The notes beneath the pieces are model-generated. The model saw only the letters and a list, made by a program, of their open reading frames with translations, had not been told where the DNA came from and ran no database searches. Positions 50,842 through 54,743 of a stretch of 64,000 bases of DNA are shown here, piece after piece. The DNA is from Kovacikia minuta CCNUW1 (GTDB lineage: Bacteria; Cyanobacteriota; Cyanobacteriia; Leptolyngbyales; Leptolyngbyaceae), in contig NZ_CP083582.1 of NCBI RefSeq assembly GCF_020091585.1, positions 2,356,001 through 2,420,000 of the forward strand, read 5' to 3'. The stretch's first letter is position 1. Each line of letters starts with the position of its first letter. The position numbers and the translations under genes were made by a program.

Positions 50842-51027
50842 ATGCAAACGATCGAAACAAACGAACTCTTCAACGAAATCTCAACGGAAGAATCTGCTCA
50901 AATTAACGGTGGCTATCGGCATCATTGCTGGCGTTGGCGGCACCATTGGCGGCATCACTACCGCCCTTGCTACGGCTATGGCTACGGGCGCAGATATGCC
51001 TATGGCTATGGCTACGGCTATCGTTAG
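50842..51027 (+). CDS. Double-glycine-leader precursor peptide 1 (His/Arg/Tyr/Gly-rich core)
   Basis: ATG 50842 is preceded by AAGGAGA. The 61-residue peptide has a 24-residue leader with motif LFNEISTEESAQINGG, the double-Gly type cut by C39 peptidases. The 37-residue core has three blocks: YRHHCWRWRHHWRHHYRP, CYGYGYGRRYAYG and YGYGYR. It is strongly cationic and aromatic, with two Cys and six His. It is not a known bacteriocin class that I can name; the leader resembles cyanobacterial GG-type precursors. Frame starts further upstream (50584) are not real. Exporter: 52599-54743. Confidence 0.88.
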   Translation: MQTIETNELFNEISTEESAQINGGYRHHCWRWRHHWRHHYRPCYGYGYGRRYAYGYGYGYR

Positions 51028-51303
51028 GCATTAACTGATCCTAAAGAACCGAGACGAAAGGAATAGGCGGTAGGATTGCCCATCGCCTGTTTCTGGTGAC
51101 ATTTTTTACCAAAGGTCGATCGCAGCTTCCTGAGAATGATGAAACTCTTGCAACATTACAAGATTGTTATATCCATTTGTTTTATCCGGATAATAACCAT
51201 CTCTTCAGGAAACTGGATCAGATTTCTAAAGATAGTCAGGAAAGTAAATTCCTACCCCTATCTTTGCTATCAACGTTGAGTCAACTTAAACAAGGAGATA
51301 CCC

Positions 51304-51549
51304 ATGCAAACGCTAGAAAAGAATGCACTCTTCACCGAACTTACTACTGAAGAGTCGGCTGAAGTTAACGGTGGCTGCTACTACTACTACCAACGCCCCG
51401 TTTCCTACAATCCCTGCTGGAGACCCTGCTACAATCCTTGCTGGAATAGCAGCTACGGTGATAGTGGCAGCTACGGTGGCAGCTACGGTAGGAGCTATGG
51501 TGGTGGTGTCAACCAAACCACCAATGTCAATGTTCTGGTCGAAGATTAG
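51304..51549 (+). CDS. Double-glycine-leader precursor peptide 2 (Tyr/Cys/Ser-rich core)
   Basis: ATG 51304 follows AAGGAGA eight bases upstream. Of 81 residues, the first 24 form the leader (LFTELTTEESAEVNGG). The 57-residue core contains CYYYYQRPVSYNPCWRPCYN and then PCWNSSYGDSG, a Ser/Gly/Tyr run (SYGGSYGRSYGGG) and a non-repetitive tail VNQTTNVNVLVED. Leader and pre-start DNA are almost the same as in peptide 1, showing tandem duplication with rapid change of the core. Four Cys could form disulfides. Function unknown. Confidence 0.87.
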   Translation: MQTLEKNALFTELTTEESAEVNGGCYYYYQRPVSYNPCWRPCYNPCWNSSYGDSGSYGGSYGRSYGGGVNQTTNVNVLVED

Positions 51550-51661
51550 TTATTGAGTGCAATTTCGTTAGGTATCCCTCTTGCAGCAAGTCTAAATTAG
51601 CGTTTGTGAATTCAGTACTTGCCAGGGGGTTACGCTCTAACCGGGTACGTTATTTCGTGCT

Positions 51662-51690
51662 AAGCATCCATACCCTTGGATGCTTTTTTT
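51662..51690 (+). terminator. Rho-independent terminator after peptide 2
   Basis: AAGCATCCA, a short loop (TACCC), TGGATGCTT and a run of seven T. A clear terminator which would end a transcript of peptides 1 and 2. Confidence 0.85.
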
Positions 51691-51722
51691 GGGTCATTTA
51701 AGCGATTCAGGAAACAGAATTT

Positions 51723-51856
51723 ATACCAATTAAGTTGCGATCGTTGCAGATGACAGCAGGGGCAGGTTTAGCAAAGAGTTTGCTGCTTTCACTCACTGAA
51801 CGGCAAAACTTGCCCCTACGCCTCCATTTGCCCTGGAACCCATTTAAATTCGGTAT
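51723..51856 (+). repeat. MITE-like family 3 copy
   Basis: Ends ATACCAATTAAGTTG and CATTTAAATTCGGTAT, internal GGGGCAGGTTT ... AACTTGCCCCTAC inverted pair. Intact copy, between two precursor peptide genes. Confidence 0.65.
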
Positions 51857-52142
51857 CAGAAGCCAGAATGCACAATACAGAAGAGTTGCAAAGCAGGTTG
51901 GGATTTTCTTTAAACGAAATGGGCTAAAAGTTGTCAGACTATCCGGATGGGTACAGCCGAGGTGGAAATCAAGAATATATAGGGCTTACTACTTCGACTA
52001 ATAGACAAAGGTTAGTAAGCTTTGTGAACGCTTCCATCTCTTAAGAATCGTTCCATTGTGTAAGTCCTATGAAATTCGGTGAGTTGGGTTAATTCGCTGA
52101 ATTTTATCTCTGAATCGATTCACTATTTCAAGGAGTCAACCC

Positions 52143-52367
52143 ATGCAAGCAGAAGTAAAGAACACCCAAGACAATTTGCTCTTCACAGAACTGTCAGAAG
52201 AAGAGTCTTCTGAAGTTAACGGTGGTCACTGGCGTCACCGGGGCTACTACAGACGCCACTATGGTTATGGTTACGGTTATGGCTACCGCCCCGTCTCCTA
52301 CTATCGCCCCTACTACCGCTCCTACTACCGTCCAGTTGCCTACTACTACGGCGGCTGCGGTTATTAA
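52143..52367 (+). CDS. Double-glycine-leader precursor peptide 3 (Tyr/Arg/Gly-rich core)
   Basis: ATG 52143 follows CAAGGAGT nine bases upstream. Of 74 residues, the leader is 28 (LLFTELSEEESSEVNGG). The core of 46 residues starts HWRHRGYYRRHYGYGYGYG, then RPVSYYRPYYRSYYRPVAYY and ends GGCGY. It has a single Cys and about 20 Tyr. It shares RPVSY with peptide 2 and GYGYGYG with peptide 1. It is 231 bases before the exporter gene, with a long hairpin and terminator between. Role unknown: metal binding, adhesion or antimicrobial action are open options. Confidence 0.88.
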   Translation: MQAEVKNTQDNLLFTELSEEESSEVNGGHWRHRGYYRRHYGYGYGYGYRPVSYYRPYYRSYYRPVAYYYGGCGY

Positions 52368-52409
52368 TCCGATGCGATACGCTGATTAACCGTTTAAGCG
52401 TATCTGAAA

Positions 52410-52479
52410 TGGGTTAAGAAATTTGGATTGGCTATTCCGGCGATCGCGCTTAAAATAGCTCAATCCATTTCTTGACCCA
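52410..52479 (+). promoter_or_regulatory. Long interrupted inverted repeat before the exporter gene
   Basis: TGGGTTAAGAAATTTGGATTG then GCTATT pairs with AATAGCTCAATCCATTTC then TTGACCCA, about 26-bp arms with small bulges, around CCGGCGATCGCGCTTA which contains a HIP1 octamer. A terminator follows at 52511. It could be an RNA-processing or stability hairpin separating peptide and exporter expression. Confidence 0.6.
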
Positions 52480-52510
52480 TTTTCATTTGAACCATCAAGC
52501 CATTAAGTTT

Positions 52511-52540
52511 CAACACCCGCTCTTTCGTGGGTGTTTTTTT
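52511..52540 (+). terminator. Rho-independent terminator before the exporter gene
   Basis: CAACACCC, loop GCTCTTTC, GTGGGTGTT with a run of seven T. A strong terminator, so peptide 3 and exporter are probably separate transcripts or joined by limited readthrough. Confidence 0.85.
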
Positions 52541-52598
52541 CGGATTAGCCTGATCTGAAGCGGAATACTACCTTTATCGGGTTTGCAAATTTAAACGT

Positions 52599-54743
52599 AT
52601 GAAATATGCCGTATTCCTTCAGCAGAATGAAGAGGATTGTGGAGCTGCCTGTTTAGGTGCGATCGCCAAACACTATGGGCTAAACCTCAGCCTGACGCGA
52701 CTGCGTGAAGCCGTTGGAACTGGACAACAAGGTACCACGCTTTTGGGATTAAAGCGAGGTGCAGAAACATTGGGGTTCAATGCCCGTTCGGTAAGGGCTT
52801 CTGCCCAAATTCTCGATCGCCTCAGCGAAGCTCCTTTACCTGCGGTCATTCACTGGATGGGATACCACTGGGTGGTGCTCTATGGGCAACAAAAGCAAAA
52901 GTATGTGATTGCCGATCCAGGGGTAGGGTTACGTTATCTGACCAAAGAAGAATTAGTCGAGGGCTGGACGGATTGGGTCATGCTGCTGGTAGAACCAGAC
53001 CCAGCCCGCTTCTACGCTCAAGAAGGCGACCCCGTGCGGGGAATTGGCAGTTTCTTCCGGCGGATCTGGGCATACCGTGCATTGCTGACACAGGTATTGC
53101 TGATCAACCTGATCCTGGGTCTGCTGGCGATCTCCACTCCTTTTCTGATTCAGGTTCTCACCGATGACGTGCTGGTGCGGGGGGATTTGAGGTTGTTAAA
53201 TGGGTTGGCGATCGCGGTGATTATCCTCAACCTGTTTAGCAGCGGTTTGGGGCTGGTGCAATCGAATTTGATTGCCTACTTTGCCCAGCGGTTAGAGCTA
53301 GGCTTTGTGATGGAATTTGGGCGAGCCATTTTGCGACTGCCCCTGACCTACTACGAAACCCACCGCAGCGGTGAAGTGGTCAGCCGTTTGCGTGATATTC
53401 AAGAAATCAATCAGTTGGTTGCCCAGGTCGTTGTCAGCCTGCCCAGCCAGCTTTTTATTGCGCTGGTTTCCTTCGCTTTCATGCTGTTTTTTAGCTGGAA
53501 GTTAACCGCGTTGGCGATCGTCCTTGGCATCTTGATGACCATTTCGACGCTGGCGTTTCTACCTACCTTGCAGCAAAAAACACGCAGTTTGCTGATTCTT
53601 GAAACCGAAAATCAGGGGGTTTTAGTCGAAACCTTCAAGGGTGCCCTTACCCTCAAGACCACAACTGCTACAGGTCAGTTTTGGGAAGAATTCCAGAGCC
53701 GTTTTGGGCGGTTGGCGAACCTGAGCTACCGCACCACCCAGATTGGCATTATCAACAACGTCTTCTCCAGCCTGGTGTCAGGGATTGGGGCAATTGTTCT
53801 GCTCTGGTTTGGCAGTTCGCTGGTGATCAGCCGCGAGTTAACGATTGGGCAACTGTTAGCCTTTGCCAGCCTGAATGGCAACGTTGCTGGATTAATCAGT
53901 ACCGTGGTGAAATTTGTGGAAGAATTTACCCGTGCTCAAACGGCTACCCAGCGGCTCTCAGAAGTGATCAACCACACATCCGAAACCCAGGGAGATTCGG
54001 CCAAACCTTTCGTCAGAATCCCGGACAACGCCGACATTCAGTGTCATCAGTTGACCTTCCACTACCCAGGCCGGGTCGATTTGCTGGATAATTTCTCGCT
54101 AACTCTACCAGGAGGCAAAGTAATTGCGCTAATCGGGAAGTCAGGTTGTGGCAAAAGTACACTGGCAAAGCTGATTGCGGGACTTTATACCTTACAGTCG
54201 GGCAACATTCGGATTGGTGCCTTCAATTTGCCAGATCTGGCGATCGACGGTTTACGCCGTCAGGTTGTACTGGTGCCTCAAGAACCCCATTTCTGGAGCC
54301 GCTCAATCATTGAAAATTTCCGCTTAGGCACACCGGACATCAGTTTTGAACAGATCGTTCAGGTTTGTCAGATTACGGGAGCTGATGAGTTCATCAGTCG
54401 CCTACCGGAAAAGTACCAGACTGTATTGGGAGAATTTGGTGCAGATCTATCAGGGGGACAACGACAACGGCTTGCGATCGCCCGTGCCCTGATCAACGAT
54501 CCGCCCATTCTGATCTTGGATGAATCCACCGCTGGACTTGATCCGGTCAGCGAGTCACAAGTCCTAGACGAACTGCTGTCCTACCGTGAAGGCAAAACCA
54601 CCATTTTGATCAGCCATCGTCCCAGAGTAATTAGTCGTGCCGACTGGATCGTACTTCTGGATCAGGGCAAACTGATCACCCACGGTCCTATCTCGGATCT
54701 GCGCTCTAAGGTGGGGGAACACCTGGAGTTTTTGACTCCCTAA
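52599..54743 (+). CDS. C39-peptidase ABC exporter for double-glycine peptides (PCAT type)
   Basis: A 714-residue half-transporter. The N-terminal C39 peptidase domain (residues 1-130) has Gln8 and Cys14 in QQNEEDCGAAC, His90 in WMGYHWVVLYG and Asp106 in VIADPGVG. Six membrane helices lie at about 155-430. The ATPase has Walker A GKSGCGKST (about 513-521), LSGGQRQRLAIARAL and ILILDESTAG. It would cut leaders after Gly-Gly and push the cores across the inner membrane, using the three upstream peptides as substrates. No HlyD-type adaptor or outer-membrane partner is nearby. Confidence 0.95.
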   Translation: MKYAVFLQQNEEDCGAACLGAIAKHYGLNLSLTRLREAVGTGQQGTTLLGLKRGAETLGFNARSVRASAQILDRLSEAPLPAVIHWMGYHWVVLYGQQKQKYVIADPGVGLRYLTKEELVEGWTDWVMLLVEPDPARFYAQEGDPVRGIGSFFRRIWAYRALLTQVLLINLILGLLAISTPFLIQVLTDDVLVRGDLRLLNGLAIAVIILNLFSSGLGLVQSNLIAYFAQRLELGFVMEFGRAILRLPLTYYETHRSGEVVSRLRDIQEINQLVAQVVVSLPSQLFIALVSFAFMLFFSWKLTALAIVLGILMTISTLAFLPTLQQKTRSLLILETENQGVLVETFKGALTLKTTTATGQFWEEFQSRFGRLANLSYRTTQIGIINNVFSSLVSGIGAIVLLWFGSSLVISRELTIGQLLAFASLNGNVAGLISTVVKFVEEFTRAQTATQRLSEVINHTSETQGDSAKPFVRIPDNADIQCHQLTFHYPGRVDLLDNFSLTLPGGKVIALIGKSGCGKSTLAKLIAGLYTLQSGNIRIGAFNLPDLAIDGLRRQVVLVPQEPHFWSRSIIENFRLGTPDISFEQIVQVCQITGADEFISRLPEKYQTVLGEFGADLSGGQRQRLAIARALINDPPILILDESTAGLDPVSESQVLDELLSYREGKTTILISHRPRVISRADWIVLLDQGKLITHGPISDLRSKVGEHLEFLTP

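Follow-up and report, generated by a model that had tools for sequence, protein, structure and literature searches.

Comparison with described double-glycine peptide systems

In the EbfG1-4/PteB system of Synechococcus elongatus PCC 7942, several double-glycine (GG) precursors are encoded 5′ of a C39-peptidase ABC exporter. EbfG1-3 form amyloid in a heterologous assay, EbfG4 is located at the cell surface as well as in the matrix, and the EbfG proteins need the C39 transporter for their secretion (PMC4997328, PMC9981879). The locus described here lies in a 64,000-nucleotide stretch of Kovacikia minuta CCNUW1 DNA (the window) and has the same layout, with several GG precursors 5′ of an exporter of the same family. 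The two systems also have in common low-complexity cores that are unrelated to one another, with Tyr/Pro-rich starts and, for the most part, an SVxQ(S/T)V stretch. The EbfG cores, however, contain Lys, are not rich in Arg and Tyr, and carry an A(F/I)NI(G/S) amyloid hotspot that is absent from the window cores.

Two loci from 2.7-Mb genomes (L072 and L073) have four GG precursors 5′ of an exporter with 56-57% identity to the window exporter. At L072, the second, third and fourth precursors contain LAFNIG, AINIS and AQNIG, respectively, which are published EbfG motifs (PMC9981879), and this match points to an operon of the EbfG1-4 type, linking it to that of S. elongatus. Unlike the window, both loci have an HlyD-type gene beside the exporter, and the EbfG-like and window exporters fall in different subclades (57% identity) of a family that holds paralogues. 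Because the EbfG exporter belongs to this family, it nonetheless provides a functional precedent, in the biofilm matrix.

Other described systems resemble parts of the locus. Known cyanobacterial clusters, probably those named 'group III' by Wang et al. (2011; PMC3140520), combine a short-type C39-ABC exporter, HlyD and several GG precursors with unrelated cores. They differ from the window, where HlyD is unlinked, and their cores are reported to be rich in Gly, Cys, Ser and Thr; the text consulted mentions no lysine-free Tyr/Arg class. The NCBIfam family NF038167 (CTB family bacteriocin) matches the window peptides weakly and in the leader only (E 0.05-0.1), with at most 13.7 bits against a curated cut-off of 32 bits, leaving the cores unmatched. 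PCAT1 and ComA (PDB 4RY2, 8HF4) are homologous to the exporter over its full length and share its C39 catalytic residues, but they belong to Gram-positive systems, with no outer membrane to cross.

Three precursor genes precede a C39 exporter

An earlier note on this DNA had proposed that three GG-leader precursors are served by one C39 exporter, which near-identical leaders, a genome-wide profile search and Pfam domains bear out. All four genes are on the plus strand. Precursor 1 (50842-51027, 61 aa) consists of the leader MQTIETNELFNEISTEESAQINGG followed by the core YRHHCWRWRHHWRHHYRPCYGYGYGRRYAYGYGYGYR, whose 37 residues carry a net charge of +8 and include 16% His and no Lys, Asp or Glu. 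Precursor 2 (51304-51549, 81 aa) has a neutral core, CYYYYQRPVSYNPCWRPCYNPCWNSSYGDSGSYGGSYGRSYGGGVNQTTNVNVLVED, with a conserved, strand-like tail, VNQTTNVNVLVED, encoded at 51508-51546 (plus strand) in a form common to 13 other cores. The core of precursor 3 (52143-52367, 74 aa), HWRHRGYYRRHYGYGYGYGYRPVSYYRPYYRSYYRPVAYYYGGCGY, has a net charge of +8 and 37% Tyr, with orthologues in L049 and L050. The short-type exporter of 714 aa (52599-54743) has the catalytic residues Q8/C14/H90/D106. An AAGGAG ribosome-binding sequence lies about 6 bases 5′ of the ATG in all three peptide genes. Hairpins resembling intrinsic terminators, each with a T run, occur on the plus strand 3′ of precursor 2 (51662-51685) and in the gap between precursor 3 and the exporter (52512-52535); since these strong hairpins follow peptides 2 and 3, the cluster genes probably form separate transcription units.

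Comparison between genomes gave pN/pS values of 0.18-0.50 for peptide 3 (L049, L050), peptide 2 (L050) and the tail-bearing relatives, all of which are thus under purifying selection. The earlier note had allowed for frames that are not conserved between strains; since peptides 2 and 3 are conserved between genera, this doubt falls away for these two, whereas no clear orthologue of peptide 1 was recognised outside its own genome, where its closest relative is a His-rich orphan encoded elsewhere. Ribosome-binding sequences, purifying selection and, for two of the three, orthologues in related genera mark the peptide genes as genuine. Aliphatic residues make up 3-11% of the window cores. Over 37 residues, the combined fraction of Tyr, Arg, Trp, His and Gly is 0.81-0.89 in peptides 1 and 3; the maxima among neighbouring proteins are Gly-rich.

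Carriers of the shared leader

The three leaders are nearly identical and end in TEESAQINGG, TEESAEVNGG and EEESSEVNGG. A 24-position leader profile, of which the window leaders were part, was searched against the whole 8.56-Mb genome and returned five members only (E 5e-13 to 1e-3; next E 6), namely the three cluster genes and two unlinked genes. Because three of the five genome-wide members are cluster genes, the clustering of this leader is not due to chance. The leaders show the hydrophobic/acidic pattern ending in GG or GA and are linked to an exporter, as expected of double-glycine precursors.

Both unlinked genes carry the same leader as the cluster. One (profile match at G000:C1:4363543, minus strand) spans G000:C1:4363429-4363617 on the minus strand (L084:5430-5618) and encodes the core YHGHGHHHGHHGHWRRPWHHRRHCYWRHHRRHCYYPY, with 38% His and no exporter nearby. 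The other (profile match at G000:C1:5093842) spans G000:C1:5093749-5094126 (L120:5750-6127), encodes the tail-like core SINQVTTVNVIV and adjoins a DUF305-like gene and a Cu-type P-ATPase, as read by eye from their sequences. The two unlinked peptides probably use the cluster exporter.

The exporter and its probable, unlinked HlyD partner

Pfam identifies Peptidase_C39 (E 2e-36), ABC_membrane and ABC_tran in the exporter, which aligns over its length with PCAT1 and ComA. The residues C14, H90 and D106, read as intact in the earlier note, are indeed so; together with Q8 they occur in all but one of the 69 exporters aligned (68), the sole exception being an alignment gap. With a C39 domain that has its catalytic Cys, His and Asp, and with ABC membrane and ATPase domains, the protein is a PCAT. 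Of 97 relatives, 29 have an orthologue or close paralogue, and a stricter cut-off applied to 390 genomes of the class retrieves 61; named examples are Microseira wollei, Cyanomargarita, Scytonematopsis and Calothrix. The linkage of leader and exporter is conserved.

Exporters related to that of the window (within the 63-67% identity range) adjoin microviridin genes on a plasmid of Nostoc UHCC 0870, and LanM and a Nif11-type precursor on a plasmid of Nostoc ATCC 53789. The family is therefore a general carrier of GG peptides, and since it also serves lanthipeptide and microviridin clusters, exporter kinship alone does not fix function. The window exporter is an unexceptional representative of this cyanobacterial C39 family, to which the EbfG exporter also belongs.

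In 43 of 48 orthologous loci, the exporter has an HlyD-family protein (Pfam HlyD_3, E 5e-15) next to it; none lies beside the exporter in the window or in its closest relative (G025). The claim that the cluster has no HlyD gene thus holds locally, but an HlyD orthologue exists at C1:5157648-5158616, 2.75 Mb away, which rules out an HlyD-free exporter. It is followed 3′ by a small outer-membrane barrel and then a kinase-like protein, and the same HlyD/barrel/kinase-like block lies upstream of the L050 peptides, where the barrel was matched by Pfam and the other two by likeness of sequence and size. HlyD is also unlinked in G025, and in G322 it lies beside the peptides with the exporter elsewhere; the components of the system can thus be scattered over the genome. 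Among the neighbouring ORFs examined in the window and at the Tyr/Arg-clade loci, part of which were scanned with Pfam, no LanM, ATP-grasp, YcaO or radical-SAM enzyme was apparent; no RiPP maturation enzyme was seen in the window, and none recurs near the Tyr/Arg-clade loci.

Core chemistry and the exporter tree

Of the exporters placed on the tree, 14 group in a single subclade (SH-aLRT support of 97, and of 93 once the tree was enlarged), and Tyr/Arg/Gly-rich cores accompany all 14, one of them (L141/G322) having exporter and peptides on separate contigs that were paired by genome. With core types labelled by eye from composition in 36 rows, a single change of state accounts for their distribution on the tree. 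Among 20 further exporters (63-70% identity) added later, none falls inside the subclade and none has Tyr/Arg cores; four have short Arg-rich cores and form a subclade of their own. The 29 cores of the subclade and of the window's genome contain 1 Lys and 158 Arg per 1,344 residues, counted without the two non-Tyr/Arg cores of L117/L118, against 41 Lys and 25 Arg per 997 residues in the cores of other subclades.

The cores of the subclade are rich in Tyr, Arg, Gly, His and Trp and absent from every curated family searched, so that the view of them as an unusual class stands, with its single Lys in 1,344 residues. That the three window cores make up one class does not hold, as they are of two sorts: those of peptides 1 and 3 are cationic and rich in Tyr, Arg and His, and the neutral core of peptide 2 has a conserved tail at its C terminus. 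Two types likewise recur across the subclade, one cationic and Tyr/Arg-rich with few or no acidic residues, the other ending in (S)(V/I)xQ(T/S)xNVN(V/I)x(I/V/Y)(D/E/N)D (14 in total, peptide 2 and 13 relatives); tail-bearing peptides are known also from another family (G322). AlphaFold yielded no structure for peptide 2 and the tail family (mean pLDDT 45). We found no description of Tyr-rich GG peptides of cyanobacteria in the openly licensed literature. Leader, exporter and arrangement are thus already known, and the core class is new to the curated families searched and the literature found.

Homology of the tail to EbfG was considered and rejected, the tail profile giving no significant match (best domain E about 0.06). 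A short motif is common to the tail and five of eight EbfG-like sequences (shuffle mean 0.045), a post hoc and non-independent comparison that amounts to a hint only.

Cores of other chemistries accompany exporters elsewhere in the family. Those of L080, L082, L126 and L128, in another exporter subclade, have 29 residues (for example YRCFYVWASRRVCYWYGCFFRYVRVVRCY) with four Cys and a net charge of +5/+6 (two cores counted), and resemble β-hairpin antimicrobial peptides. GG cores at L179, L181 and L121 have a β-repeat (TQTAVNVNTGD...LTQTAANQIG) or N/Q-rich sequence and are possibly amyloid-like cargo.

Probable export and possible functions of the peptides

In our preferred reading, to which we assign a probability of about 0.5, the cluster yields a few Tyr/Arg/Gly-rich peptides that are exported unmodified and act, like EbfG, as sticky or self-assembling parts of the sheath or biofilm matrix. 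Export is by itself highly likely; the structural role is finely balanced. The common leader would dock on the C39 domain and be cut after Gly-Gly, as the sequence strongly implies, and the ABC exporter, together with HlyD encoded elsewhere and probably a TolC-type channel, would move the cores across the envelope, as the conserved linkage suggests. Outside the cell, the cores would be structural material. Tyr/Arg composition suits multivalent contacts, and peptides 1 and 3 could be multivalent stickers that use Tyr-Arg and aromatic contacts to hold to one another and to the anionic polysaccharide of the sheath; in peptide 2, the VNQTxNVNV tail may be a short self-assembling β strand. Conserved linkage of leader and exporter, invariant catalytic residues and a chemotype that tracks one subclade suggest that such a role is plausible, as does, by analogy, the presence of other β-repeat or N/Q-rich cores with exporters of the same family (L179, L181, L121). 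Against it, exporters of this family also serve lanthipeptide and microviridin clusters, the tail has neither a significant EbfG match nor a predicted structure, Lys-free cationic aromatic cores suit an antimicrobial too, and peptide 1 lacks cross-genome conservation.

Bacteriocin activity is a serious, if unlikely, rival, in which class II-type cationic aromatic peptides would inhibit competitor bacteria. A GG leader with a C39 exporter is the classical bacteriocin layout, cores 1 and 3 have the charge (+8) and the Arg, Trp, Tyr and His richness for it, and another subclade carries the four-Cys aromatic/Arg cores that look like β-hairpin antimicrobials (L080, L126). No immunity-type neighbour recurs, however, among ORFs of at least 90 aa clustered across 48 loci, selection on the peptides is purifying rather than diversifying, an aliphatic content of 3-11% ill suits a membrane-active helix, no curated bacteriocin family reaches its cut-off, and neutral tail-bearing peptides occur beside the cationic ones.

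The peptides might instead be RiPPs on which an enzyme from another part of the genome acts in trans, for example to introduce Tyr/Arg cross-links or heterocycles. The same exporter family carries several RiPPs, genes for LanM and ATP-grasp enzymes are linked to near relatives of the exporter, and genes of the system do split across the genome; we nevertheless hold this to be decidedly unlikely, given that no maturase recurs beside Tyr/Arg-clade exporters and that low-complexity cores of variable length and register are unlike a fixed enzyme substrate. Extracellular binding of Cu, Zn or Ni by histatin-like peptides would fit the 16% His of peptide 1, the 38% of its unlinked paralogue, the Cys in both, and the DUF305-type gene and Cu-type P-ATPase read from the sequence beside the other orphan. 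Peptide 1 and the His-rich orphan are the main plausible candidates, but for the system as a whole metal binding is improbable, as most orthologous cores have only 0-8% His, no metal gene was seen in the vicinity of the window cluster, and the conserved traits are Tyr, Arg and the tail rather than His.

We prefer the matrix role because the exporter is kin to that of EbfG, the cores are low in aliphatic residues and of Tyr/Arg composition, the strand-like tail is conserved, and no immunity or maturation gene recurs. In a bolder, distinctly tentative extension, the lysine-free, low-complexity Tyr/Arg/Gly peptides would be a secreted class not yet described in bacteria and inherited together with an exporter subclade of its own; stickers of the cationic Tyr/Arg type and peptides bearing a VxQTxNVNV β-strand tail would assemble as two partners outside the cell into a condensate- or amyloid-like sheath adhesive. 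Cyanobacterial GG peptides have been filed as bacteriocins by the hundreds; the tested members found in this exporter family (EbfG) act in biofilm. As core chemistry tracks one exporter subclade, it defines a testable set of short, unmodified-looking, synthesizable peptides. They may represent a type of cell-surface glue or matrix substance that has yet to be described. Should they indeed belong to the matrix or sheath, a single exporter family would have been put to repeated use for structural peptides of wholly different chemistries, and the cores would be a source of new tyrosine/arginine adhesives.

Further exporter copies and neighbours

A decayed C-terminal fragment of a second exporter copy (71% identity) lies at G000:C1:4738961-4739344 (L083). 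Contigs L012 and G007:C430 are apparently one, from Leptolyngbyaceae cyanobacterium CSU_1_3, of the same family as the window organism. The exporters of L185, L187, L189 and L190 belong to a subclade with short Arg-rich cores such as RRPRRRPRRRPRRRPARSVSRS. At six clade loci (L051-L055, L060), a lipoprotein-like gene with a Pilin_GH domain lies downstream, about 2.3 kb past the exporter start.
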